From NCBI GenBank assembly GCA_014055465.1, contig WIAF01000002.1, forward strand, positions 62,001-126,000: DNA of 64,000 bases, written 5' to 3'. Origin of the DNA: Nitrospira sp. CR1.1 (GTDB lineage Bacteria; Nitrospirota; Nitrospiria; Nitrospirales; Nitrospiraceae). The position numbers and the translations under genes are program-made. Below, piece after piece: positions 6,141 to 63,462 of this stretch. Position 1 is the first letter of the stretch. Each line of letters begins with the position of its first letter. The notes beneath the pieces were generated by a model. The model was given only the letters and a program-made list of their open reading frames with translations. It searched no databases and was not told the origin of the DNA.

Positions 6141-7526
6141 ATGCACGCACCCACCCTCCTGATCGTCGAAGACGAAGAACGCATGCGCCGCCTCTTTGAG
6201 CTGGTGCTGAAACCTGCCGGGTATCATCTGCTGTTGGCGCGTTCCGGAGAGGAAGCCATCCGCTTGCTGCAGGAGCATGACTCGCTCGACATGATCATCA
6301 CGGACCTTCAACTGGGAACCCTGTCGGGCATGGACGTGCTGGAAGCCGCCCGCCAACAGGCGCCTGATGTGCCGGTCCTCATCGTGACCGGCTATGGAAC
6401 GGTAAAATCGGCCGTCGAGGCAATGCAGAAGGGCGCCTACGATTACATCTCCAAGCCGGTGGATAACGAAGAGCTGAAAATCGTCATCGCCCGCGCGCTG
6501 CAAGTCCGTCAACTCGCCCGGGACAATCGCGCGCTGCGCGCAGGGCTCCATGAGCAGTTCGGATTCGACCGCATCGTCAGCGTCTCCAAAGAAATGGAGC
6601 TGGTCAAACGGCTTGCCAGGGAGGTGGCCCAGACCGATGCCACCGTGCTGATCACAGGCGAGAGCGGCACGGGCAAGGATCTCCTCGCGCGCGCCATTCA
6701 CCTGGTCAGCCCGCGCGCGCAAGGCCCGATGGTGGCGCTGAACTGCGCCGGCATTCCCGAGCATCTGCTTGAATCCGAACTGTTCGGCTATGAGAAAGGC
6801 GCCTTCACCGACGCAAAGAAGTCCAAGCCGGGCCGTTTTCAAATGGCCGATCGCGGCACCTTGTTCCTGGATGAAATCGGCGAACTCAGCCTGACGGCGC
6901 AAGCCAAACTTCTGCGGGTGCTCGAGCAGCATGTGGTGGAGCCGCTGGGCGGGGTTCGGAGCATTCCAGTCGATCTGCGAGTCATTGCCGCGACGAATCA
7001 GGAGTTGCCCGACCTCATCAAGGCCGGTCGCTTCCGCCTGGATTTGTATTATCGCCTGAACGTCTACCAGCTTCGCATGCCCCCCCTGCGGGAACGGCCG
7101 GGCGATATCGAACCGATCCTGACTCAGTTTCTCGACCAGGCCCGCCGCGAGCGTGGCAGCCGCATCAAAGGGATCGCGCGGGACGCGCTCACGCGTCTCA
7201 CGCAGTATCCCTGGCCCGGCAATGTGCGGGAGCTTCACAATGTCGTGGAATGGCTGACGATCACCTGCAAGCAGGACATGATTCAGCCCGAGCATCTCCC
7301 GGCTTCGCTGACCGCCGCAGCCCCCCAGCCGCCGGCGTCGCCGGCCGGCGGTCCCTCGCTCCTCTCGTTCGGGCTGTCGGTCGAAGAGGTCGAAAAAGCG
7401 ATGCTGCAAGAAGCGCTGACGAAGAGCGGCGGCAATGTGTCTGAAGCCAGCCGCCTGCTCAAAATCACACGCAACACGCTGCGCTATCGCATGGCCAAAC
7501 ATAACCTGTCACAGCCTCAAGGCTGA
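6141..7526 (+). CDS. Sigma54-dependent response regulator (NtrC/AtoC family)
   Basis: A 461-residue activator with receiver (about 1-120, phosphoacceptor Asp55), AAA+ domain and Fis-type HTH. The Walker A motif GESGTGKD is at 173-180 and the sigma54-contacting GAFTDA loop at 220-225; the sensor R-finger region and the C-terminal [17 protein letters not shown] helix-turn-helix are intact. It should act as a phosphorylation-controlled enhancer-binding ATPase for sigma54 promoters. The gene overlaps the downstream kinase gene by one base (TGATG), so the two form a two-component pair. Its target genes are not obvious here. Confidence 0.93.
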
Positions 7527-9439
7527 TGCGCGCTGCACGACGGACCGGCGGGCTCCAGAGAAAATTTTTTGTCGCGTTATTGATCGTCGGCATCGTGCCG
7601 GGCATGGCCGCGCTCTGGGCCACCTACCATTCCAGCACCGCCAGCCTCAAGCAGGCGATCGGAGAAGGGTTCCAGGAAATTGCGCGCTCCACATCGATTC
7701 GATTAGCCGGCGCCGTCGACGATGAAATCGATCGCGCCGGCCGTCTGGCCATCAGCGTCGCCAATCAACAAGCGCAAGGACTCTCCGACCGGTCCGACCG
7801 CAGCCAAACCGAAACCGCTCGTTCGCACCCCGCTCATCGGCCTCTGACAAAGCCGGTCACCGCCGGCTACCTCGAAGAATGGGCGCACGAATCCCGCCAC
7901 TATCTGCGTGTCACCATTGCCGATCACCGGGGCCTGGTCCTCGCCTCCACCGATCCGGGGCTCTCACCGCAGCAGGCTGATCAAACGTGGTGGCGCGAGG
8001 CCATGCACGCCCCGGCCGGCACGGCCTATGTCAGCACTGTCACGCTCGACCCGGCCATCAACGACGCGATCTTCCACGTTGCGGTTCCCATTGTGGAGAA
8101 GGCCGGGGCCACGGTGACTGGCGCCGTCGACCTCGTGATCCGCCACAATCTCCTCACCCAGCTGATCCTCCCGATTCATATCGGGAATACTGGCCATGCC
8201 ATGCTCCTCGATACGCAAGGGACACCGCTCATCTGTCCGGTGCTGCCGCCGACCGCCCACCTCATTCCCCCAAGTCTGATGAACCGGCTGGCTCTGGACC
8301 GTCCCTTGTGGTTGGTGGCCAATGACGATGCGCACGGCGGGCGCGATGCGATCGTTGGAGCCTCGCCGGTCCGCTTCAGCCATCCGTTGACCCCGTCCAG
8401 CCTGGAAGGCAATCGATGGTACGCCTTTGTTCGACAGGCTCCCGAGGAAACCTATGCGCCAATCTATTCGCTCCTGCTGTCCGTCGGCGTGATCGGCTTC
8501 GGCCTGGTGATTGTGCTGTCCGCCTTTGGATTTGCCGTCGGCTATCGGATCGTCAAACCGCTCGCCGCGCTCCAGCGGGAGGCCGAGGGACTGCGCCTCA
8601 ATTTGACGACGCCTCACACCAACAGCACTGTCCCGCCTGCGACTCCGCCCTTGCCGCAGGAATACCGGACCGGTGATGAAATCGAAGACCTCGCCACGAC
8701 GTTCAGCGCAATGCGGGCGGTGCTGGAAGAAAATCTGCGCACCATCAAGTCGCAGCAACATGAATTGATCCGGCAGGAAAAGCTGGCATCGGTCGGACAA
8801 CTCCTTGCCGCCCTTGCCCACGACCTCCGCAATCCCCTCGGCGTGATCCGTAGCTCAGCCCAAGTGGTGCTGGAGGGGCCGCAGGACGAAGCGATCCGTC
8901 ACGAAATGGCTCGCTATATCATCGACGAAGTCGACAAACTGTCCCAACGCCTTCACGACTTTCTGCGTTATGCGAGGCAGAAGCCGCCGGACTTTGCCGA
9001 CTGCGCTGCGGAAGACGTAATACGCGCCGCTGTGAAGCAGTGGGAAGCGCAAGGCGGGCATGAACACATCCGGGTCGAGCACCGGTTCGGACGCAACCTG
9101 CCCCTGATTCATATTGATCCTGAACAGATCAAGGAAGCCCTCATGAACGTGCTGATCAATGCGCGGGAAGCGATGACGGAAGGGGGAACCCTGACCCTGG
9201 CAACCCGCGGCGGGGAAGGAGGCGATGTGGAGATCGATGTGGCGGATACGGGAAGCGGCATAGCGCCAGACCACCTCGCGCGACTTTTCGAACCGTTTTT
9301 CACCACCAAGACCTATGGCACTGGCCTCGGCCTCACCAACGTCAAACGTCTCGTGGAAGATAACGGGGGAACCCTGGCCGTGACCAGCAATCAGGGGAAC
9401 GGCACCACCTTCACGCTGCGCTTTCGCCCGGCGAGCTAG
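7526..9439 (+). CDS. Membrane sensor histidine kinase, partner of the sigma54 regulator
   Basis: A 637-residue kinase. A membrane segment lies at about 15-33, a large periplasmic double-Cache-like sensor to about 310, a second membrane segment at about 313-338, then HAMP and HisKA with the phosphoaccepting His432 (AHDLRNPLG). The ATP-binding domain shows N-box (NVLINAREAM), DTGSGI and GTGLGL. All catalytic boxes are present. Cache domains usually sense small organic ligands; the ligand here is unknown. Organisation matches the 770-residue kinase at 17.9-20.2 kb, although that one also has a PAS domain. Confidence 0.92.
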   Translation: MRAARRTGGLQRKFFVALLIVGIVPGMAALWATYHSSTASLKQAIGEGFQEIARSTSIRLAGAVDDEIDRAGRLAISVANQQAQGLSDRSDRSQTETARSHPAHRPLTKPVTAGYLEEWAHESRHYLRVTIADHRGLVLASTDPGLSPQQADQTWWREAMHAPAGTAYVSTVTLDPAINDAIFHVAVPIVEKAGATVTGAVDLVIRHNLLTQLILPIHIGNTGHAMLLDTQGTPLICPVLPPTAHLIPPSLMNRLALDRPLWLVANDDAHGGRDAIVGASPVRFSHPLTPSSLEGNRWYAFVRQAPEETYAPIYSLLLSVGVIGFGLVIVLSAFGFAVGYRIVKPLAALQREAEGLRLNLTTPHTNSTVPPATPPLPQEYRTGDEIEDLATTFSAMRAVLEENLRTIKSQQHELIRQEKLASVGQLLAALAHDLRNPLGVIRSSAQVVLEGPQDEAIRHEMARYIIDEVDKLSQRLHDFLRYARQKPPDFADCAAEDVIRAAVKQWEAQGGHEHIRVEHRFGRNLPLIHIDPEQIKEALMNVLINAREAMTEGGTLTLATRGGEGGDVEIDVADTGSGIAPDHLARLFEPFFTTKTYGTGLGLTNVKRLVEDNGGTLAVTSNQGNGTTFTLRFRPAS

Positions 9440-9441
9440 GA

Positions 9442-9477
9442 ACGGCCCCTGAACGACCCGAGAACGCCGCTGGCAGC
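9442..9477. repeat. Solo 3' half of the 124-bp intergenic element
   Basis: This stretch repeats the right-hand part of the element that follows it: the shared core GAGAACGCCGCTGGC (9460-9474) is preceded by CCCTGAACGA, matching CCCTGAGCGA of the full copy. It begins 2 bp after the kinase stop codon. No left half is present, so it is a truncated copy or the product of tandem exchange with the adjacent full copy. Confidence 0.55.
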
Positions 9478-9494
9478 TAATCAGACCAGTCCTG

Positions 9495-9617
9495 CAGGAG
9501 GCTCAAACAGGCTGTCCAGCAAGGCCGCAGCAAGGGAAGGGCCGAAGCGTACCCTTGCGGTACGTTGAGGCCCTGAGCGAGGCGAGAACGCCGCTGGCGG
9601 CCTGTTTCAGCCTCCTG
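9495..9617. repeat. Intergenic inverted-repeat element, copy A
   Basis: A 123-bp unit with terminal arms 9495-9520 and 9593-9617 that pair almost fully (one mismatch column and one offset). Inside are the family motifs AAGGCCGCAG (9521-9530), a double hairpin GGGCC / CGTACC ... GGTACG / GGCCC (9539-9572) and GAGAACGCC just before the right arm. It fills the gap between the convergent kinase and M48 genes and ends 3 bp from the M48 stop. Related copies lie at 49205, 52833, 62384 and 63339. There is no T-tract, so it is not a classic terminator. Confidence 0.85.
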
Positions 9618-9620
9618 CCC

Positions 9621-10493
9621 CTAGATGCGTTTGGTCATGCGCGAGAACCGCTCCTGTAACAGGACGCCGGTGGCGGCAAGATGTTTGCCCTGAATCGTTT
9701 TCTGCACTGCCTCGATACGCGCTGAAAAGTTGGGATGGGTTTTAAACAAAGCCCGGTCATCGCCCTTGAGGTCCCGTAAGCGCGTCAGCAAGCCCACATA
9801 GGCCTCCGCGTCGTAACCGACCCGCGCCGCGAACACTTCGCCGACCGTATCGGCTTCCGTTTCCTTCTCCTGATCCAGGCCTTCATCGAGCAACTTCTTG
9901 ACCGCGCCGTCAATCACGGTCTTGAACGCCGCCGGATTGCTCGTCGCATACGACAGGCCCGCTTCGGTCACACCTGCCAGGCGCTTGCTCCGCTGAATGA
10001 CATCGAGAATGTGCTTTTGGCTCACGTGGGCGATTTCATGTCCCAACACCGCGGCCAACTCCGCCTCGTTTCGGATCTGCTTGAGCAGACCGCGCGTGAC
10101 AAAGATGTATCCGGCCGGCGCGGCAAAGGCATTGATCGATTCATGCTCCAGAATCGCCACCCGATAGGGAATATCCGGCCGGTCGGACGTGTTGGCGACT
10201 GCCCGCCCGACCAGATTCACATACCGGACGAGCTCCGGTTGATCCACGACTCCGCCATACCGTGCCACAACCTGCAAGGCCATCGACTGGCCGATCGACG
10301 ACTCCTCCTCATAGCCGATGGGGAACAGACTCCCGACAACATTGCCGACCCCATGAATGGCCCCGGCCAAGCGCGGATTACCGGATTGTCGCGCGATATC
10401 TTCACTGGCTCGCTGCACGTCCGCGCAACCGGCCGCGGCCAGAGAAAAGGCAATCAACGTTGCCGCCAGATTCTGATTACTTCGCATATTCAC
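9621..10493 (-). CDS. M48-family metalloprotease lipoprotein
   Basis: A 290-residue exported protein with a lipobox (LAAAGC) after a short hydrophobic signal, so it should be lipid-anchored in the envelope. The zinc site HEIAH is in the family context VLGHEIAHVSQKH, with the third ligand in EKETEADTVG. M48 proteins of this type (Loi/BepA-like) degrade or chaperone misfolded outer-membrane proteins. The TPR region of BepA is missing. The start overlaps the preceding SH3 gene by 17 bp, indicating an operon with it and the adenylate cyclase. Confidence 0.9.
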   Translation of the reverse strand: MNMRSNQNLAATLIAFSLAAAGCADVQRASEDIARQSGNPRLAGAIHGVGNVVGSLFPIGYEEESSIGQSMALQVVARYGGVVDQPELVRYVNLVGRAVANTSDRPDIPYRVAILEHESINAFAAPAGYIFVTRGLLKQIRNEAELAAVLGHEIAHVSQKHILDVIQRSKRLAGVTEAGLSYATSNPAAFKTVIDGAVKKLLDEGLDQEKETEADTVGEVFAARVGYDAEAYVGLLTRLRDLKGDDRALFKTHPNFSARIEAVQKTIQGKHLAATGVLLQERFSRMTKRI

Positions 10494-11014: not shown

Positions 11015-13153
11015 TCATTTCGACGTCATTTCATACACGCCATCCCACTCTGTTGACGGAGGGGTATGGCGATAATTGGTCGAGCGTTCGAGGTAGACGC
11101 GCGACGGACCATCCGATGGGTCCAAGGTCACGGCTTCTGCAAATCTGGCGCAAGCGATCGAGAAATCTCGCAATTTATAGGCCGCCAGACCTTCCAGGTA
11201 CACGTCGATGACGCGCTGCTTCTTCTCGTCCAGCTGCCCCTTGCGGGCCAGCAGCTCAAACACGACGACCGGATCTTTTTTGCCCTTCACTCGTAGCAGA
11301 TCGATCTCTCGCACTTCAACGTCGTTCTTGGCCAGTTCGGCCGTCCGCTGGCCGATCAAAATCAATGTATCGTAGTACTTGCTGGCGCCTTCTAGGCGCG
11401 ACGCCAGATTCACGCTATCCCCGGTCACCGTATACTCCATCCGTTCTTCAGACCCCATGTTGCCGACAATGCAGGGCCCGGAGTTGATACCGATTCTGGC
11501 GCCAATTTCCGGCAACCCCTCCTGCTTCCAAATCACACGGAGCCGGGCCAATTCGGCCTGACAGTCCAACGCAGCATAGCAGGCCAGCGACGCATGCTGG
11601 GGATCGTTCAGGGGCGCGCCGAAGAGTGCCATGATGCCGTCTCCGAGATACTTGTTCACATTGCCACGATGGGTGGTCTTGATGATGGTCGTCATGGCCG
11701 ACAGGTAGCGGTTCAGCAACGCCACGAGATCCTCCGGCGGCATCTTTTCGGAGATGGTCGTGAAGCCGGCAATATCCGAGAAGAGAATCGAAATCTCCTT
11801 CTTCTCTCCCCCGAGCTTGATGGCCTCGGGATTCCGCATGATCTCCTCAACCACTTCAGAGGACATGTACTTGTCGAACGCCGCCCGCATGAGCCGGCGC
11901 TGCTTTCCCTCGGTTACATATTCGACCGTCGCAGCCGTGCCGAACGTCAAGGCCAGGGCCATCTCCGGAAACACCAGATCCAGCCACCGCTCGTGCCCGG
12001 CGAAGGCATGTGCCACCAACCCATAGTAGGCCAGGGCAAGGCCAATCGTGACGCCGAATTTGACCGGATAGGAAGGCACCAGCATGAAGGCCCCGGCCGA
12101 AGCGAGGCACAGCAGCAGGAGAACCGTCAACGAAAACCAGGCCGGCGCGGCCTGCAATCCTTGCCCGTGCAGCAAATTGTCCAGCGCCGCCATGTGGATG
12201 AGCACGCCGGGTGTGGCGGAAGAAAATGGGGTGACTCGAAGATCGTACAGACCTGCCGCCGTCCCGGCGATAAACACGACCTTGTCTTTGAACAACGTCG
12301 CATCCAGTGTTGGCCGCTCCCCTTTTTCCTGCTGAGCGAATGCCTGCAGCACTCCGCCAATCGAATACTTCCGAGCATGGTAGGTCTGCTCCAGCGAGCC
12401 GTGCCACCGGATCAAGAGGTGGCCATCGGCATCGAGTGGAGTACTGCTGTTCCCGATGCGTACCCGGCCATCCTCGACGGAAAGCCCGTCCGCCCCGAGC
12501 AGGTACCGGGCCACCGCGACCGGGAGATGCGGAACGAACTGCCCGCCCACCTGCCCCAACAACGGAATGCGCCTCGTCGGGCCGTCTGCATCCGCGGACA
12601 GATTGATGACGCCGAGGCCATGCGCCTGCTGCGCCAGCACTAGAGTCGGCGGCTTCACCCCGGCCTGCATGTCCGCCCTGCGGTCCGATTCCCGCCACTC
12701 GACCTTCAGGGTCGCGCGGGATTGCAGCTCCTGTGGAATCGGGGCGGGCTCGGCGAGGAACAACATAGGGAGGAACACATTGTCTGCCGCACGCATGTCG
12801 TCGGCAAACGACTGATCAAACTCTTCGGCATTCTCATCCGGTTCGAAAAACATCACGTCGAAGACGACGGCTCTTGCACCCGCCTGTTTGAGATAGCGCA
12901 CCACATACCCAAATCGGTCACGCGGCCAGGGCCAGCGTCCGAACGCCTCCAGGCTCGATTCATCGATGGCCAGCAGCGCAAGATTTGAATCCGCCTTGGC
13001 AGGATCGGCATACCGCCGGACCAGATGATCAAACGCGTTGAGTTCCACCACCTCAAACCACCGGGTCATCCGCAGTCCAGCCACGAGACTGAACACAGCG
13101 AGGCCGACCGCGAGCGCGGAGAGGAGTTTCGTTGTCCGTGTCGAAGAGGTCAT
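11015..13153 (-). CDS. CHASE2-domain membrane adenylate cyclase (class III)
   Basis: A 712-residue protein: one N-terminal membrane segment, an extracytoplasmic CHASE2 sensor (about 35-335), three membrane helices (about 340-410) and a class III cyclase domain (about 450-625). Metal-binding Asp460 (LFSDIAGFT) and Asp505 (KYLGDGIMALFG) are present. The substrate-selecting pair is Lys501 and Thr575, the pair known in bacterial class IIIb adenylate cyclases, and the transition-state Asn/Arg are in VNLASR. The C-terminal tail contains one TPR-like repeat. It should make cAMP in response to an external signal. It heads an operon with the SH3 and M48 genes. Confidence 0.9.
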   Translation of the reverse strand: MTSSTRTTKLLSALAVGLAVFSLVAGLRMTRWFEVVELNAFDHLVRRYADPAKADSNLALLAIDESSLEAFGRWPWPRDRFGYVVRYLKQAGARAVVFDVMFFEPDENAEEFDQSFADDMRAADNVFLPMLFLAEPAPIPQELQSRATLKVEWRESDRRADMQAGVKPPTLVLAQQAHGLGVINLSADADGPTRRIPLLGQVGGQFVPHLPVAVARYLLGADGLSVEDGRVRIGNSSTPLDADGHLLIRWHGSLEQTYHARKYSIGGVLQAFAQQEKGERPTLDATLFKDKVVFIAGTAAGLYDLRVTPFSSATPGVLIHMAALDNLLHGQGLQAAPAWFSLTVLLLLCLASAGAFMLVPSYPVKFGVTIGLALAYYGLVAHAFAGHERWLDLVFPEMALALTFGTAATVEYVTEGKQRRLMRAAFDKYMSSEVVEEIMRNPEAIKLGGEKKEISILFSDIAGFTTISEKMPPEDLVALLNRYLSAMTTIIKTTHRGNVNKYLGDGIMALFGAPLNDPQHASLACYAALDCQAELARLRVIWKQEGLPEIGARIGINSGPCIVGNMGSEERMEYTVTGDSVNLASRLEGASKYYDTLILIGQRTAELAKNDVEVREIDLLRVKGKKDPVVVFELLARKGQLDEKKQRVIDVYLEGLAAYKLRDFSIACARFAEAVTLDPSDGPSRVYLERSTNYRHTPPSTEWDGVYEMTSK

Positions 13154-49157: not shown

Positions 49158-49204
49158 CGGGGAAAAATGAGGCGACTAGTTTGAACGCTGAATGTGAAGA
49201 GTTT

Positions 49205-49328
49205 CAGGACGCTCAAAAAGGCTGATCAGCAAGGCCGCAGCGAGAGAGCATGTGAGGCGTACCCTCAGCGGTACGTTGAACATGCGAGCGACGCGAGAAC
49301 GCTGCTGGCGGGCTTTTTCAGCGTCCTG
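49205..49328. repeat. Intergenic inverted-repeat element, copy B
   Basis: A 124-bp unit with arms 49205-49230 and 49304-49328 pairing almost throughout. The internal double hairpin is GCATGT / CGTACC ... GGTACG / ACATGC (49248-49285). The motifs AAGGCCGCAG (49231) and GAGAACGC (49296) match copy A. The arms differ from those of copy A but differ together: GGAGGCT/AGCCTCC in A is GGACGCT/AGCGTCC here. It fills the gap between the convergent DUF2024 and lspA genes and ends at the base before the lspA stop codon. Confidence 0.88.
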
Positions 49329-49850
49329 TCAGGAGGGGGGATTCTCGGACACCACCGGACTGTGCTCAGACTCCTTCTCCAACGCGAAGTGCAGGATCAG
49401 GAACACCACCCCGACCGTAATGGCCGAATCGGCCACATTAAACGCCGGCCAATGGTACCCGTTAATATAAAAGTCGAGGAAATCGATCACTTCCCCGTAG
49501 CGCAGCCGGTCCAATAAGTTGCCGATTGCTCCGCCCAGAATCCCCGCCACGCTCAGCCGCCCCATCCAGTCATCCTTCGGCATACGCACGAGAATCATCC
49601 CCAGTAAACCCACGGCGAAGATCGAGGTCAATCCGAAGAACACGAACCGGAATGAGCTACTGCTGGACGACAGGAAGCCAAACGCCGCGCCGGGATTGCG
49701 GATATAGGTAATACTAAACAGGTTGGTGATGACGGGAATGGACTCATGGAGCCGCATGGTCTCCATGACATAGACCTTGGTGGCTTGGTCCACTACCACG
49801 ATCGCCAGGCTAAGCAATCCAAGCAGGAGATACCGGATAGATGGACTCAC
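49329..49850 (-). CDS. lspA: Lipoprotein signal peptidase
   Basis: From GTG 49850 the product has 173 residues and four membrane helices. The catalytic aspartates are in the family motifs YIRNPGAAFGF (preceding region), GGAIGNLLDRL and FNVADSAIT. It removes signal peptides of lipoproteins, several of which are encoded in this window. The GTG overlaps the ileS stop (GTGA), so the two are coupled; ileS-lspA order is common in bacteria. The longer frame to 50192 lies within ileS and is rejected. Confidence 0.95.
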   Translation of the reverse strand: MSPSIRYLLLGLLSLAIVVVDQATKVYVMETMRLHESIPVITNLFSITYIRNPGAAFGFLSSSSSSFRFVFFGLTSIFAVGLLGMILVRMPKDDWMGRLSVAGILGGAIGNLLDRLRYGEVIDFLDFYINGYHWPAFNVADSAITVGVVFLILHFALEKESEHSPVVSENPPS

Positions 49851-52666
49851 TGGACCGCCTCGATGCAACGATCGCAGAGAGTGGGATGGTCTGCAGAAGC
49901 GCCCACGGCCGATCGGTAGTTCCAACAACGTTCGCACTTCGCACCGGTCGCCTTCTCGACCGTGATCGCAAACCCGGAACTGCCAGGCACAGGAGCGACC
50001 GCATTGAGAACCACTTCGGACACGATAAAGAATGACGACAGATCCTGGCCGTAGCCCTTCAAGAATTCGTATGCGCTGGCATCGGCTTCGATGACGACTC
50101 GCGCTTCCAATGGCGCGCCGATCACCTTCTCGCGACGTTTGACTTCCAGCGCAGCCTGAGCGGCGGTCCTCACCTCGAGCAGCCGTTCCCACCGCTGCGC
50201 CAGCGTTGGATCTGCCCAGCGCGGATCAACCTCCGGGAACATGGCGATATGGACACTCTCAGCGTTCGCCTCTGCCCGCACAGACTCCGGCAACGTTCTC
50301 CAGATTTCCTCGGCGGTGAAACTCAACACCGGCGCCATCAATTTGGTCAACGCCACCACAATCTCAAACAGCACCGTCTGCGAGCCGCGCCGCAACGGAG
50401 AATCCTTGCGGAAGGTATACAAGCGGTCCTTCAGGATATCCAGATACACGGCGCTCAAATCGACGGAACAAAAGTTGTTCAGCGCGTGAAAGATCGTATG
50501 GAACTCAAATTCGTCATACCCCTTGCACACGCGCGGAATCAGTTCGCCCAGCCGCATGAGCGCCCAGCGGTCTAATTCGGGCAACTGCTCAAAGGGCACA
50601 CGGTGCTGCGCCGGCTCGAAGTCATACAGATTGCTCAGCAGGAAGCGGCAGGTATTGCGAATCTTGCGATAGGCTTCAATCAGGTGATTCAGGATCTCCT
50701 GCGAAATTCGAAGGTCTTCGCGATAGTCCTGGGCCGACACCCAAAGACGAAGGATCTCCGCGCCCGATTGTTTGATGACATCCTGGGGGGCGACAACGTT
50801 GCCCGCCGACTTCGACATCTTTCGCCCGGCCCCGTCCAACACGAAGCCATGCGTCAGCACGGCCTTGTATGGCGCTTGATGATCGGTGATGACCCCCGCC
50901 AGTAACGCGCTGTGGAACCAGCCGCGATGCTGGTCAGACCCTTCCAGATACAGATCCGCCGGATACCAGCGGCGACTCTTCAACACAGCCGCGTAACTCA
51001 CGCCGGATTCGAACCACACGTCCAGAATGTCGCGTTCCTTCTCGAATGCAGTTCCGCCACATCCGTCGCAACTGGTTCCGGAAGGAAGCAACGCGCCGGC
51101 CTGATTGGCAAACCAGTAGTCCGTGCCATGTTGGCCGATGAGATCCGCCACATGATCGATGACCTGGGGGTGGGCCAGCACCTTGCCGCATTTTACACAG
51201 GTAAAGCCGGGGATCGGCGTGCCCCAGACCCGTTGGCGTGACAGGCACCAATCGGGGCGGTTCTCGATCATCCCGTTGATGCGGTCACGGCCATAGGCAG
51301 GAATCCAGCGCACCCGTTCAATCTCCGCGAGCGCCTCTTTCCGCAGCTCATTCGTCTCCATCGAGACGAACCACTGCTCAGTCGCGCGAAAGATCACCGG
51401 CTGCTTGCACCGCCAGCAATGGGGATAGGAGTGCTTGAGTGATCCGTGGCCGAGTAAGCGGCCGTTTTCTTTGAGGCGTTCCGCGATTTTCGGGTTGGCC
51501 TTGAACACATGCTGGCCGGCGAACTCCGGAACCGCCTCGGTAAACTTCCCGCCATTGTCCACCGGCGCCAGAATTTCGAGTCGCTCTCCGACGCTAGCCT
51601 TGGCATTGTGATCCAACACCAGCAGATAGTCTTCCATGCCGTGGCCAGGCGCGATATGCACGCACCCGGTTCCCTGCTCCAACGTCACAAAATCTCCCAG
51701 GAGCAGCGGCGAAAGGCCCGTGGTTAGGGGGCGCTGGGTTTCCAACCCTTCAAATCCCTCGCGACCTTTTTTCACCGCGACGATCGTGTAGTTCGACAGA
51801 CTGCAGGCCTTGGCAACCGACTCGACCAGCTTCTCGGCCATGACCAGCAATTCGTCCCCGACCTGCACAAAGGCATAGTCGATATCGGGATGAAGACAGA
51901 CGGCCTGATTGGCCGGCAGGGTCCAAGGGGTGGTCGTCCAGATCAGGACGGAGGCGCTCTTCACATCGGCAGGAAATGCAAGCCCGCCGAATCTCTTGCT
52001 CAAGAGAGCCGGAGAATTCACCAACGGAAACTTCACATAGACCGAGGGCGACGTGTGATCGTCGTATTCGACTTCCGCTTCGGCCAGCGCGGTCTGATCT
52101 TGCGTGCACCACAAGACCGGCTTCAACCCTTTGTAGACCCCGCCTCGCTCCACAAACCGGCCGAACTCGCGGATGATGGTGCCCTCATACGCCGGATTCA
52201 ACGTGAGATAGGGTTGTTGCCATTCGCCCAGCACACCCAGCCGCTGAAACTCCTCGCGCTGGATCGCCACATACTTTTCCGCATATTCCTTACAGAGTTT
52301 GCGGATCGCGAGCGCATCCAAGTCCCGCTTCTTATCCCCCAGTTCCTTCAGGACTTGATGTTCGATCGGCAGGCCATGGCAATCCCAGCCCGGCACATAC
52401 GGCACCTGGTAGCCGGACATCGTCTTCGATTTGACGATAATGTCTTTCAGAATTTTGTTCAGTGCGTGACCGATGTGGATCCGCCCGTTGGCATAGGGCG
52501 GGCCATCGTGGAGGATGTATCGTTCACGCCCCTGACGAGATTCCTGGATCCGTTCGTACAGCCGTTCCTGCGCCCATCGGGCCAGCATCTCCGGCTCCCG
52601 TTGCGGCAGGTTCGCCTTCATGGGGAAGTCGGTCTTCGGCAAATTGAGGGTCGATTTATAGTCCAT
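49847..52666 (-). CDS. ileS: Isoleucyl-tRNA synthetase
   Basis: A 939-residue class I synthetase with HIGH at residues 64-67 (GRIHIGHALNKILKD), a CP1 editing domain, KMSKS (GRKMSKSAGN) and a C-terminal zinc site (GAKCERCWNYRS ... LCDRC). The length and the C-terminal zinc ribbon match the common bacterial (type 1) form. It precedes lspA in a two-gene operon. The 336 bp upstream contain intergenic element copy C and no gene. Confidence 0.97.
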   Translation of the reverse strand: MDYKSTLNLPKTDFPMKANLPQREPEMLARWAQERLYERIQESRQGRERYILHDGPPYANGRIHIGHALNKILKDIIVKSKTMSGYQVPYVPGWDCHGLPIEHQVLKELGDKKRDLDALAIRKLCKEYAEKYVAIQREEFQRLGVLGEWQQPYLTLNPAYEGTIIREFGRFVERGGVYKGLKPVLWCTQDQTALAEAEVEYDDHTSPSVYVKFPLVNSPALLSKRFGGLAFPADVKSASVLIWTTTPWTLPANQAVCLHPDIDYAFVQVGDELLVMAEKLVESVAKACSLSNYTIVAVKKGREGFEGLETQRPLTTGLSPLLLGDFVTLEQGTGCVHIAPGHGMEDYLLVLDHNAKASVGERLEILAPVDNGGKFTEAVPEFAGQHVFKANPKIAERLKENGRLLGHGSLKHSYPHCWRCKQPVIFRATEQWFVSMETNELRKEALAEIERVRWIPAYGRDRINGMIENRPDWCLSRQRVWGTPIPGFTCVKCGKVLAHPQVIDHVADLIGQHGTDYWFANQAGALLPSGTSCDGCGGTAFEKERDILDVWFESGVSYAAVLKSRRWYPADLYLEGSDQHRGWFHSALLAGVITDHQAPYKAVLTHGFVLDGAGRKMSKSAGNVVAPQDVIKQSGAEILRLWVSAQDYREDLRISQEILNHLIEAYRKIRNTCRFLLSNLYDFEPAQHRVPFEQLPELDRWALMRLGELIPRVCKGYDEFEFHTIFHALNNFCSVDLSAVYLDILKDRLYTFRKDSPLRRGSQTVLFEIVVALTKLMAPVLSFTAEEIWRTLPESVRAEANAESVHIAMFPEVDPRWADPTLAQRWERLLEVRTAAQAALEVKRREKVIGAPLEARVVIEADASAYEFLKGYGQDLSSFFIVSEVVLNAVAPVPGSSGFAITVEKATGAKCERCWNYRSAVGASADHPTLCDRCIEAVQ

Positions 52667-52832
52667 AGGTACTCACGCTGTCGGCTGACAGCCTTCAGCG
52701 ATCAGCATATCAAGAGGTTACCGGCTTCGTCTCAGGTGATCGGATGGAATATACCGGAAGGAAGGGGGAACGCACCAGCCCTTTCACAGCAAGCCCCACG
52801 TAGAACAGCTGAATAACTGCGGCCAACTTTTA

Positions 52833-53000
52833 CAGGATCGTCAAAAGCGTCTTCCGGCAAGACCGCAGCGAGCGAGAATGCGAGGCGTCACGTTCTTACC
52901 CGCCCGCCCTGCGCCTGCCTAGACAGGCGCTTTTACCCTTAGCGGTCCGTTGAACGTGCGAGCGACGCGAGAACGCCGGCGGCGGCCTTTCTCAACAGCT
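52833..53000. repeat. Intergenic inverted-repeat element, enlarged copy C
   Basis: The family motifs AAGACCGCAGCGAG (52859), GAGGCG (52882), CGTTGAACGTGCGAGCGA (52948) and GAGAACGCCG (52970) occur in order. The inner hairpin loop is replaced by about 45 extra bases holding a separate stem GCGCCTG (52911-52917) / CAGGCGC (52924-52930). Terminal arms are degraded. It ends 2 bp before the nadA stop codon and lies between nadA and ileS, both on the minus strand. Confidence 0.65.
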
Positions 53001-53002
53001 TG

Positions 53003-54142
53003 CTAGCTGAGAGCCATCATGCGGTCCAAAGCCACCTTCGCCCACCGCTTCTCATCATCCGGCACGACAATGTGGTTGACCACATGCCCATCGGCAAGGT
53101 TTTCCAGCGCCCAACAGAGGTGCGGAGCGTCGATGCGATACATGGTGGCGCATTGACAAACCGTCGAGGAGAGGAAAAACACTTTCTTGTCAGTCTGCTC
53201 GTGTTTCAACCGATTGACCAAATTCAGCTCAGTCCCGACCGCCCAAGTCGTGCCCGCAGGCGCTGCCGTGATCGTGCGAATGATATATTCCGTCGAACCC
53301 ACAAGGTCGGCCTTGTTGACCACATCTTCATGGCATTCGGGATGCACGATCACCTTCACGTCCTGGTATTGCCTGCGAAAATAGTCCACATGCGAGGGCT
53401 GAAACATCTGGTGCACGCTGCAATGCCCCTTCCAGAGGATCAACTTGGCACGCAGAATGGCTTCCACCGAGTTGCCGCCGCGCGGCATGTAGGGATCCCA
53501 GACAATCATCTGCTCGCGCGGGATGCCCATTTTATTCGCCGTATTCCGGCCCAGATGCTCGTCGGGGAAAAACAGAATCTTCTCGCGCCGCGCCCAGCTC
53601 CATTCGATCACCTTGCGTGCGTTCGACGAGGTGCAGGTCAGCCCGCCATGCTCGCCGCAGAAGGCCTTCAAGATCGCCGCAGAGTTCACGTAGACCGCCG
53701 GCATAACCGTCTCTTCCACCGGCACCACCCGACCGAGTGCATCCCAGCACTGTTCGACCTGTTCAATCGCCGCCATATCGGCCATAGAGCAGCCCGCCGC
53801 CATGTCAGGGAGAATGACGGTTTGGTTGGAGCGGCTCAACACATCAGCCGTTTCCGCCATGAAGTGCACGCCGCAGAACACCACATAGGGACGATCGGAA
53901 CGCTGCTCGGCGACTTGCGCCAATATCAGGGAGTCGCCGCGAAAATCGGCGTGCTGAATCACTTCATCGCGTTGATAATTATGGCCGAGGATCATCACCC
54001 GGTCACCCAGCGCCCGTTTGGCCGCACGGGTCCGTTCGAAGAGTGCTTCGGCAGACAGAGACTGGTAATCGGTAATAGGACGCGGAAGCGTGGCGACCGT
54101 TTTCACCTGCAGCCTTTCGGTTGAGTCCATCCCCTGTGTCAC
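53003..54142 (-). CDS. nadA: Quinolinate synthase A
   Basis: A 379-residue [4Fe-4S] enzyme that condenses iminoaspartate and dihydroxyacetone phosphate to quinolinate. Family segments are ILGHNYQRDEVIQHADFRGDS, FCGVHFMAETADVLS, AAGCSMADMA, VNSAAILKAF and HPECHEDVV, which hold the substrate and cluster ligands. The length fits the longer bacterial form. nadB and nadC are not in the window; nadD is at 30.9 kb. It stands alone. Confidence 0.96.
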   Translation of the reverse strand: MTQGMDSTERLQVKTVATLPRPITDYQSLSAEALFERTRAAKRALGDRVMILGHNYQRDEVIQHADFRGDSLILAQVAEQRSDRPYVVFCGVHFMAETADVLSRSNQTVILPDMAAGCSMADMAAIEQVEQCWDALGRVVPVEETVMPAVYVNSAAILKAFCGEHGGLTCTSSNARKVIEWSWARREKILFFPDEHLGRNTANKMGIPREQMIVWDPYMPRGGNSVEAILRAKLILWKGHCSVHQMFQPSHVDYFRRQYQDVKVIVHPECHEDVVNKADLVGSTEYIIRTITAAPAGTTWAVGTELNLVNRLKHEQTDKKVFFLSSTVCQCATMYRIDAPHLCWALENLADGHVVNHIVVPDDEKRWAKVALDRMMALS

Positions 54143-54222: not shown

Positions 54223-54519
54223 CTAGCGAAGCTTCCAATATCTTGGCCGACGGCGGCCGTGCGCAATAGCCACCACCTGAACGGAGTCCTTCACGACTCG
54301 GTAGACCAACTGGAAGGGAAACCTGCGAAAGAGATACCGGCGAGTTCCATGCACAAACAGGGTCCAGCGTTCCGGAGCAAGAGAGACGGCTTCGATGCCG
54401 CGGTCAGGTTCAGCCAAAAACCAATCCGCAGCGGACTGACTTTGCGCGACATACTATTGCAGAGCAGCTTGAGCTTCCTCAACAGCGGCAGGATGAAAAA
54501 CGACAGATAGCCCCGGTAT
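54223..54519 (-). pseudogene. Decayed ParE/RelE-type toxin gene
   Basis: Translation from 54519 gives a full RelE/ParE-like toxin: LSVVFHPAAVEEAQAALQ at the start and RRYLFRRFPFQLVYRVV, then VVAIAHGRRRPRYWKLR at the end. Two lesions are seen. The codon expected to be ATG, overlapping the antitoxin stop as TGATG, reads TGATA; and a TAG at 54456-54454 interrupts codon 22. A TTG at 54417 could only yield the C-terminal 64 residues, lacking the first helices. The toxin is therefore probably inactive. Confidence 0.75.
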
Positions 54520-60270: not shown

Positions 60271-60278
60271 CACCAACG

Positions 60279-60364
60279 ACAGCTAGGGGTGCCATCCGGC
60301 TGAGAGTCCGAGCGATCGGACGACCCTCACAACCTGACCTGGGTAATACCAGCGTAGGGAAGCG
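60279..60364 (+). promoter_or_regulatory. TPP riboswitch (THI element)
   Basis: The conserved THI-box parts occur in order: GGGGTGCC (60286-60293), CTGAGAG (60300-60306), ACCCTCACAACCTGACCTGG (60323-60342), and GTAATACCAGCGTAGGGAA (60343-60361). The first and last pair to close the aptamer. It senses thiamine pyrophosphate and should repress thiC when thiamine is plentiful. A terminator hairpin follows after about 28 bp, pointing to transcriptional control. Confidence 0.96.
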
Positions 60365-60385
60365 ACCGGTTCACTGGCTTCGTGA

Positions 60386-62383
<1,998 letters not shown>

Positions 62384-62504
62384 GGCTCGTCAAAATGGCT
62401 ACCCAGCGAGGCCGCAGACGAGTCCAAACCGGAGGCGTACCCTCAGGGGCACGTTGAGGATTTGGGCGAGCTGAGAACGAAGCTGGAAGTCATGTTCAAC
62501 AGCC
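62384..62504. repeat. Intergenic inverted-repeat element, copy D
   Basis: A 121-bp unit starting at the base after the thiC stop codon. It has GAGGCCGCAG (62409), an internal double hairpin with outer stem GTCCAAACC / GGATTTGGGC and inner stem CGTACC / GGCACG (one mismatch), then GAGAACGAAGCTGG (62473). Terminal arms GGCT...CCAGC and GCTGG...AGCC pair with some gaps. It separates thiC from thi4, 18 bp before the thi4 start. The outer inner-hairpin stem differs entirely from other copies yet still pairs. Confidence 0.8.
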
Positions 62505-62522
62505 GCTGAAGGGAAAAACCGC

Positions 62523-63323
62523 ATGGGGAAGCCGAAACCTGCGCCATTACGCGAGCGCGACATCACCCGCCAGATTGCGCGGGAATACTATACAGAGTTC
62601 GATCAACTGATCGAAAGCGACGTGATCATCGTCGGGGCCGGCCCTTCGGGCTTGATCTGCGCACACGATCTCGCCAGGATGGGGGTGAAGACTCTCATTG
62701 TCGAACAAAGCCTTGCCTTGGGCGGAGGATTTTGGTCCGGCGGCTACCTGATGAACAAGGCCACCATCTGTGCTCCGGCCCACAAGATCCTCAAAGAAAT
62801 CGGCGTGCCCTGCAAGCAGATCAAGGAATGCCCCGGCATGTACATGGTGGATCCCCCGCATGCCACGGGCGCGTTGATCGCCGCCGCCTATAACGCCGGT
62901 GCGAAGATCATGAACCTGACGAGGGTCGTCGATCTAATTCTGCGCCGGGACGGCGTACTCGAAGGGGTCGTGGTCAACAGCACCACCGCCGAAATGGCCG
63001 GTCACGATATTATCCATGTCGATCCGATCGCCTTGGAGAGTAAAATCGTGGTCGACGCTACTGGACATGACGCGGTGGTGGTGAACCTCCTGCATAAGCG
63101 CGGGCTCTATCAACAGGTGCCCGGCAATGGCGCCATGTGGGTGTCGCGCTCGGAAGAAGAAGTGATGGACCGGACCGGAGAAGTCTCCCCCAATTGCTTC
63201 GTGATCGGCCTCGCGGTTGCGGCAGTATTCGGTACGCCGCGCATGGGCCCGGCCTTCGGATCGATGTTACTTTCAGGCCGGTACGGCGCCGAGTTAATCC
63301 GAGACAAGCTGAAGAAGCATTAG
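62523..63323 (+). CDS. thi4: Thi4-type thiazole synthase, His (sulfide-using) form
   Basis: A 266-residue FAD/NAD-fold protein that makes the ADP-thiazole half of thiamine from NAD, glycine and sulfur. The dinucleotide motif GAGPSG is at 38-43, then VEQSLALGGGFWSGG and ATGHDAVVV. In yeast Thi4 a cysteine donates its own sulfur once; here the aligned position is His165 (IIHVDP), as in the archaeal enzymes that use free sulfide and turn over. This explains the absence of thiG/thiH/thiS next to thiC. It is in the thiC transcript unit. Confidence 0.9.
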   Translation: MGKPKPAPLRERDITRQIAREYYTEFDQLIESDVIIVGAGPSGLICAHDLARMGVKTLIVEQSLALGGGFWSGGYLMNKATICAPAHKILKEIGVPCKQIKECPGMYMVDPPHATGALIAAAYNAGAKIMNLTRVVDLILRRDGVLEGVVVNSTTAEMAGHDIIHVDPIALESKIVVDATGHDAVVVNLLHKRGLYQQVPGNGAMWVSRSEEEVMDRTGEVSPNCFVIGLAVAAVFGTPRMGPAFGSMLLSGRYGAELIRDKLKKH

Positions 63324-63338
63324 TTCATACTACCCCCT

Positions 63339-63462
63339 GCGGCTTCTCAAACGGGTTTCCAGCAAGGCCGCAGGAAGCGAAATCGACGAGGCGTACTGTG
63401 TTCGTACGTCGAGTTGAGTGAGCGCCCGAGAACGCAGCCGGAAACCTGTTTCAGAAGCCGCA
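63339..63462. repeat. Intergenic inverted-repeat element, copy E
   Basis: A 124-bp unit with arms 63339-63364 and 63437-63462, complementary at 23 of 26 positions. Inside are AAGGCCGCAG (63364-63373), a double hairpin TCGAC / CGTAC ... GTACG / GTTGA (63383-63415) and GAGAACGC (63428). It starts 15 bp after the thi4 stop and ends one base before the ATG of the TPR gene, leaving no free space for a separate ribosome site. Confidence 0.88.

Follow-up and report, generated by a model that had tools for sequence, protein, structure and literature searches.

ERIC (IRU), a 127-bp element, is short, non-coding and intergenic, forms a long RNA hairpin, occurs in high copy number and is MITE-like. An orientation-dependent effect of ERIC on upstream mRNA has been reported (PMC2229807). 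Correia/NEMIS and RUP are intergenic elements that have a terminal inverted repeat (TIR) in common with the insertion sequence (IS) supplying their transposase; RUP was tied to IS630-Spn1 through TIR similarity and a TA target (PMC2229807). The targets of Correia/NEMIS and RUP are TA, and the termini of ERIC are TA as well. REP/BIME elements, which go with RAYT (Y1) transposases, are extragenic palindromes present in about 100 copies, often at gene 3' ends, the REP itself being 20-40 nt long. Among insertion sequences, IS5 targets the motif YTAR (PMC10359306), and the elements listed in PMC3281130 include an IS1182 member whose duplication is 4 bp long.

Several of these features recur in a repeat of Nitrospira, the genus of major nitrifiers, whose copies form a new and apparently unnamed family of MITEs in Nitrospiraceae, with ends like those of IS5/IS1182. 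What sets this family apart is a structured body that stays constant and an association with stop codons. The element works like ERIC or RUP, yet it is no member of those TA-target families, since it lies in NTAR sites, which match the YTAR motif of IS5 (PMC10359306). Unlike ERIC, it makes a 4-bp duplication, has IS5/IS1182-like TIRs, is a 200-bp unit with the hairpin on one side and belongs to a different phylum. The logic that ties RUP to IS630-Spn1 also ties this element to its IS: TIRs and 4-bp duplications are the same as those of IS5 (NF033581) and IS1182 (NF033551) elements, but the IS codes for a transposase, whereas the MITE has the terminal 16-17 bp in common with it and an unrelated hairpin body. 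In contrast to REP, the element is 124-200 bp long and shows DDE-type duplications and no Y1 linkage. To our knowledge, there is no sequence similarity to ERIC.

Very probably, this is a non-coding, Nitrospiraceae-wide MITE of about 200 bp, moved in trans by an IS5/IS1182-like DDE transposase into NTAR sites, of which the hairpin outlasts the left part. The family, its structure, the target duplication, empty sites and the TIR match to the IS were observed directly. In the proposed mechanism, IS5/IS1182-like elements that have these TIRs would supply a DDE transposase, which would cut and join the MITE in trans, inserting it into NTAR (mostly CTAG) with a 4-bp duplication, and insertions at gene ends would recreate the stop codon and leave the gene unharmed. 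Later the left part would fade, the hairpin would survive best next to stop codons, and copies would swap arms through recombination. To aim at the stop codon and duplicate it would be a simple route to transposon harmlessness.

The window, the whole 64,000-nt stretch analysed, is part of contig C2 of the 4.44-Mb genome of Nitrospira sp. CR1.1 (G000). The first-pass annotation had claimed five related intergenic copies in it, each within about 3 bp of a stop or start codon on one side, and both statements hold. The five align with one another, and all were recovered in a cmsearch with R1, a covariance model for which this genome supplied 14 copies (59.6 to 140.5 bits); four of the five were in the training set, and about 90 untrained copies were also found by R1. 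The adjoining codons belong to the M48-peptidase, lspA, nadA, thiC and TPR-protein genes (Table 1). A pattern of two motifs matched twice in the window, compared with no match in 100 dinucleotide shuffles, and 29 times in the genome.

Table 1. Coordinates of the hairpin copies, their gene neighbours and associated repeats
Feature	Sequence	Positions	Strand	Details
Histidine kinase gene	window	7526-9439		flanks copy 1, convergent with the M48-peptidase gene
Truncated right-arm fragment of a further copy	window	9447..9477	+	repeat family D4; 87% identity with 9571-9601
Hairpin module copy 1	window	9494..9617	+	R1 140.5 bits, E 1e-33; right end 9617 is 3 bp from the M48-peptidase stop
M48 peptidase gene	window	9621-10493	minus	flanks copy 1
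Hairpin module copy 2	window	49204..49328	+	R1 129.8 bits; right end adjoins the lspA TGA stop, starting 49329
lspA	window	49329-50192	minus
Hairpin module copy 3	window	52832..53002	+	R1 59.6 bits; apical insert of ~46 nt; right end adjoins the nadA TAG stop, starting 53003
nadA	window	53003-54142	minus
TPP riboswitch	window	60275-60377		ahead of thiC
thiC	window	60467-62383
Hairpin module copy 4	window	62381..62506	+	R1 87.2 bits; between thiC and thi4; left end overlaps the thiC TGA stop, 62381-62383
thi4	window	62523-63323
Hairpin module copy 5	window	63339..63461	+	R1 98.8 bits; between thi4 and the TPR-protein gene, whose ATG is 63464
istA/istB-like genes of IS21	C1	1516-3512		in the IS at C1:866-4396
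Second repeat, ~70 nt	C13 (G000)	54251-54439; 12134-12321		also at loci L298, L304, L310, L329, L335
Third hairpin family				loci L331, L337, L342 (M48 gene 3' end); similar inside L293, L309 (nadA)

The search for further copies gave 105 in this genome, including the five in the window, and R1 matched all 53 sampled genomes of the same family. In a survey of 197 genomes of the phylum, matches extended to nearly all genomes of one sister family and to some deeper lineages, where they were weaker; match figures per genome in this survey go up to 18, to be read as at least 18. A scan of GTDB contigs returned at least 120 matching stretches, and the records among the matches listed were named Nitrospira, Nitrospiraceae or Nitrospirota, except one labelled uncultured Nitrosospira. 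G126, a genome of the same genus (C1, 4.16 Mb), has only two R1 matches, whereas every other sampled member of the genus has at least 18. That no named family is involved, as was first supposed, agrees with Rfam and the literature. None of the hairpin copies in the window matched Rfam above the gathering score, the TPP riboswitch being the sole Rfam match there, and no paper joining Nitrospira with such an element was found in a literature search that reached few subscription journals, so the family may yet have a name. With about 100 copies per genome, and copies in all sampled relatives too, annotation, gene 3' ends and transcript boundaries are complicated.

The 124-bp module, which had been taken for the whole unit, is only the hairpin half of the element. 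Many copies in the genome extend 75-80 bp further left and begin with a second TIR; from CAGG to CCTG, the length of such a complete copy is mostly 196-203 bp. A complete unit, as in young copies, consists of the left TIR CAGGnTGnnGAAAA, about 55 nt of variable, subfamily-specific sequence and the 124-bp hairpin with the right TIR TTTTCnnCAnCCTG; this pair of TIRs is present in 53 full-length copies, drawn from many Nitrospira genomes. The module folds as a single long imperfect hairpin (-77.2 kcal/mol, z -7.9, for the RNA of copy 1) with constant unpaired motifs, namely CAAGGCCGCAG / CGAGAACG, GCGTAC..GTACGTTGAG and a C.C mismatch in TCAAA/TTTCA. Helix covariation between 14 copies was 0.426 compared with 0.177 in shuffled data, and 25 of 40 pairs had two-sided changes. 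T-runs were seen at copies by eye.

Copy 3, noted at first sight as an enlarged copy at 52833-53000, does contain an apical insert, and in addition its outer arms belong to two different stem types, which makes it a mosaic. The insert (52889-52935) is palindromic, GTCACGTTCTTACCCGCCC..GCGCCTGCCTAGACAGGCGC, and is also present in the apical loops of copies that are unrelated (C1:609888, C7:160334, L305, L306 and L313), as though insertions favoured this loop. Arms or loops of several MITE copies also contain a second repeat, about 70 nt long, that has two hairpins (GTTCACGACGCG..CGTGAAC, GCCGCCGAGCCGGTGAGGCGGC, AGTGTCTT). At C6:102040-102422, C7:160334-160746 and C2:503464-503714, two or three differing hairpin units without left halves stand in near-direct tandem, 1-16 bp apart; simple NTAR insertion does not account for them.

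The sole partner IS in the genome is broken, and no intact one was found there. It lies at C1:866-4396 (L261), has the TIR CAGGCTGTTGACAAAC and CTAG on both flanks, and an IS21 element interrupts its transposase (IS1182/IS5-like, with DUF772 and DDE_Tnp_1). Complete IS of 1314-1384 bp, coding for an IS5/IS1182-like DDE transposase, are present in other Nitrospiraceae genomes. Their transposases fall into three groups with about 90%, 44% and 38% identity to the query and TIR types CAGGCTGTTGACAAAC, CAGGCTGCGGAAAAAC and CAGGATGTTGAAAAAC; TIRs of the relatives' IS were also recorded as CAGGCTGCGGAAAAACT, CAGTGTGTTGACAAACC and CAGGATGTTGAAAAAC. By NCBIfam, two of three tested transposases belong to the IS5 family (IS5_4, 269 and 244 bits; cut-off 140), and the third is just under this cut-off and under that of IS1182 too. 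Two MITE subfamilies, those of the CAGGCTGTTGACAAAC and CAGGCTGCGGAAAAAC types, match the IS TIR at 17 of 17 nt, and 4-bp duplications (CTAG, TTAG, CTAA or ATAG) flank 16 of the relatives' IS. Since TIRs and NTAR duplications are the same in IS and MITE, we infer from the sequences that the MITE was moved in trans, probably by IS5/IS1182-like transposases. The hairpin core is absent from all 23 extracted IS bodies, which have only the TIRs in common with the MITE; for this reason, the idea that the MITE arose from the IS by simple internal deletion was rejected. That only the TIRs are in common, and that the genome has no intact partner, weighs against the proposed mechanism.

The target duplication was examined in full-length copies, as the left ends of the five window copies are gone. 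Flanking 4-bp direct repeats were identical in 31 of the 53 full-length units, whereas 200 shuffles gave a mean of 19.2 and a maximum of 27. The 5-bp flanks never matched, so the repeat is never longer than 4 bp. Most duplications are CTAG; TTAG/TTAG (three times), ATAG/ATAG and CGAA/CGAA also occur, which identifies the 4 bp as duplicated target and rules out a fixed CTAG end. An IS630-type TA MITE was rejected: the duplication covers 4 bp, the base preceding TA changes in parallel on the two sides (TTAG and ATAG pairs), and the single DDE_3 protein in the genome is without such TIRs. YTAR includes TAG and TAA, and the target is often a stop codon of this kind; an insertion at a gene end with a 4-bp duplication would thereby restore a stop on both sides and spare the gene. 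The MITE among the options first offered is thus borne out by TIRs, 4-bp duplications, IS partners and empty junctions. The REP-like option is not: REP/RAYT was rejected, as the genome has a single Y1_Tnp match (C6:115426-115674) and duplications of 4 bp are in keeping with a DDE mechanism.

Full-length copies adjoin stop codons with either end alike, six with the left and six with the right. In 72 copies no left TIR was recognisable; in 43 of these the hairpin end of the element is 0-3 bp from a stop codon, and in only one is the left hairpin end at a stop (43:1). Stop codons beside all left-TIR-less copies of this kind were TAG (30), TAA (12) and TGA (7). All these counts carry some error, since the gene calls came from a simple script based on codon usage. 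The 43:1 bias is more than target choice alone would explain. None of the 72 copies has a duplication at the left hairpin end, and NTAR is found there in one; hairpin-only transposition with the same target was rejected on this ground. The missing duplication also weighs against the main reading, in which these copies would derive from full-length units. A gene stop is over-represented 70-89 bp to the left of the hairpin, where it would be in a full-length copy. To judge from the sequences, it is likeliest that left halves erode and that hairpins beside stop codons persist, perhaps as terminators or mRNA 3'-end hairpins.

Comparison of orthologous junctions revealed insertion polymorphism. None of the eight copies tested on contig C2, the five of the window among them, is present at the corresponding junction of G126, a useful empty-site reference. 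At C2:195951, at the ends of convergent genes, G126 has the empty site ACTTAGACC with one TTAG, and the CR1.1 genome has CCCTAG, the 200-bp element and CTAGACGG, with CTAG on both sides. At the nadA 3' end the hairpin adjoins the stop in most of 26 genus genomes; nadA of G126 ends at the same codon, without a hairpin. Copies at the nadA site in L297 and L303 retain the left TIR lost in others. The thiC-thi4 copy (copy 4) was seen in about 22 genus genomes; at this junction of G126 the stop and the spacer are separated by GCAGCC, either the pre-insertion site or perhaps a deletion scar. The thi4-TPR junction has three states in the genus, as it may contain either of two different copies or no copy at all. 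Orthologous stops that carry the same hairpin in about 25 species, together with the nearly element-free G126, are a natural experiment in which effects on transcription ends are directly testable. In some species the MITE is replaced at the same stop codons by hairpins of a third family, whose ends are TAGCCCGGACTATTCATGAAT..ATTCATGAATAATCCGGGCTA and whose core, GACGTAC..GTACGCCTGCG, is similar.

It is possible, if somewhat short of probable, that the hairpin is primarily a host 3'-end device under selection, either a bidirectional intrinsic terminator or an mRNA-stability hairpin, and that mobility only delivered copies. The 43 left-TIR-less copies beside stops in one orientation, the widespread hairpin at the nadA 3' end and the strong folds are in favour of it, and so is the thiC-thi4 copy, in which pairing was kept during vertical inheritance (15 two-sided cells in 20 species, 4.9 when shuffled). 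The rate of change in vertically inherited copies is 0.32-0.40 of that at four-fold sites, yet in the close species pairs that were compared, neighbouring element-free spacer changes at a similar or lower rate; no constraint in excess of that on ordinary spacer was found there, and selection on sequence was rejected. Outer stems at nadA are of types I/I and II/II, but four genomes, including that of the window, have I/II mosaics that persist with unpaired outer arms. These mosaics make block exchange between copies likely, and covariation alone is therefore not readable as selection for RNA. The inner stem of the thiC-thi4 copy in L268 is now a near-perfect palindrome, as expected from self-templated repair. 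Also against a host device, G126 is without hairpins at every tested site, and a simple terminator scan, which is blind to such long hairpins, showed no excess at copies. A retained 3'-end role, as bidirectional terminator or mRNA 3'-end hairpin, is suggested tentatively for the MITE, and the termination device or structured RNA of the first-pass annotation may be secondary roles, given the helix covariation and the stop-codon bias of old copies. More doubtful is a phylum-old, stop-codon-targeting mobile hairpin kept genome-wide as interchangeable 3'-end devices in one orientation beside stops, with arms that would be swapped in blocks and then matched anew, perhaps through self-templated repair, which would let pairing outlast sequence change.

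The orientation asymmetry, the closely spaced tandem hairpins and the left hairpin end without duplication would also fit a separate mobile hairpin that inserts beside stops in fixed orientation by another mechanism. This is unlikely, since the hairpin design is the same in copies with a visible left TIR, the nadA-site copies in L297 and L303 still show that TIR, and there is an excess of gene stops 70-89 bp leftward. A family of structured RNAs, cis-regulatory or trans-acting and unconnected with mobility, would agree with the conserved unpaired motifs and the covariation; it is improbable, because gene neighbourhood is not constant, there are roughly 100 copies per genome, the same junctions are polymorphic for presence, and TIRs with target duplications contradict it for young copies. 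Still less credible are attC sites of a degraded chromosomal integron. An IntI C-terminal fragment (C4:129653-129901, 143.6 bits to TIGR02249) lies about 0.9 kb from a copy, and stems that are variable yet complementary, located after stop codons, recall such sites. But the copies are dispersed over the genome rather than set in cassette arrays, the 4-bp NTAR duplications contradict this origin, the ends are IS TIRs and not RYYYAAC/GTTRRRY, and IntI is only a fragment, with no intact one above the family cut-off.

Apart from the MITE copies, the window contains at 1059-1544 a small ORF (1110-1472) between the inverted repeats AGCGTGAAACGTAAAACGTGAAAGGTGAAACGTT / AACCTTTTACCTTTCACGTTTTACCTTTCACGCT, which by eye resembles a four-helix-bundle (S23-type) protein.
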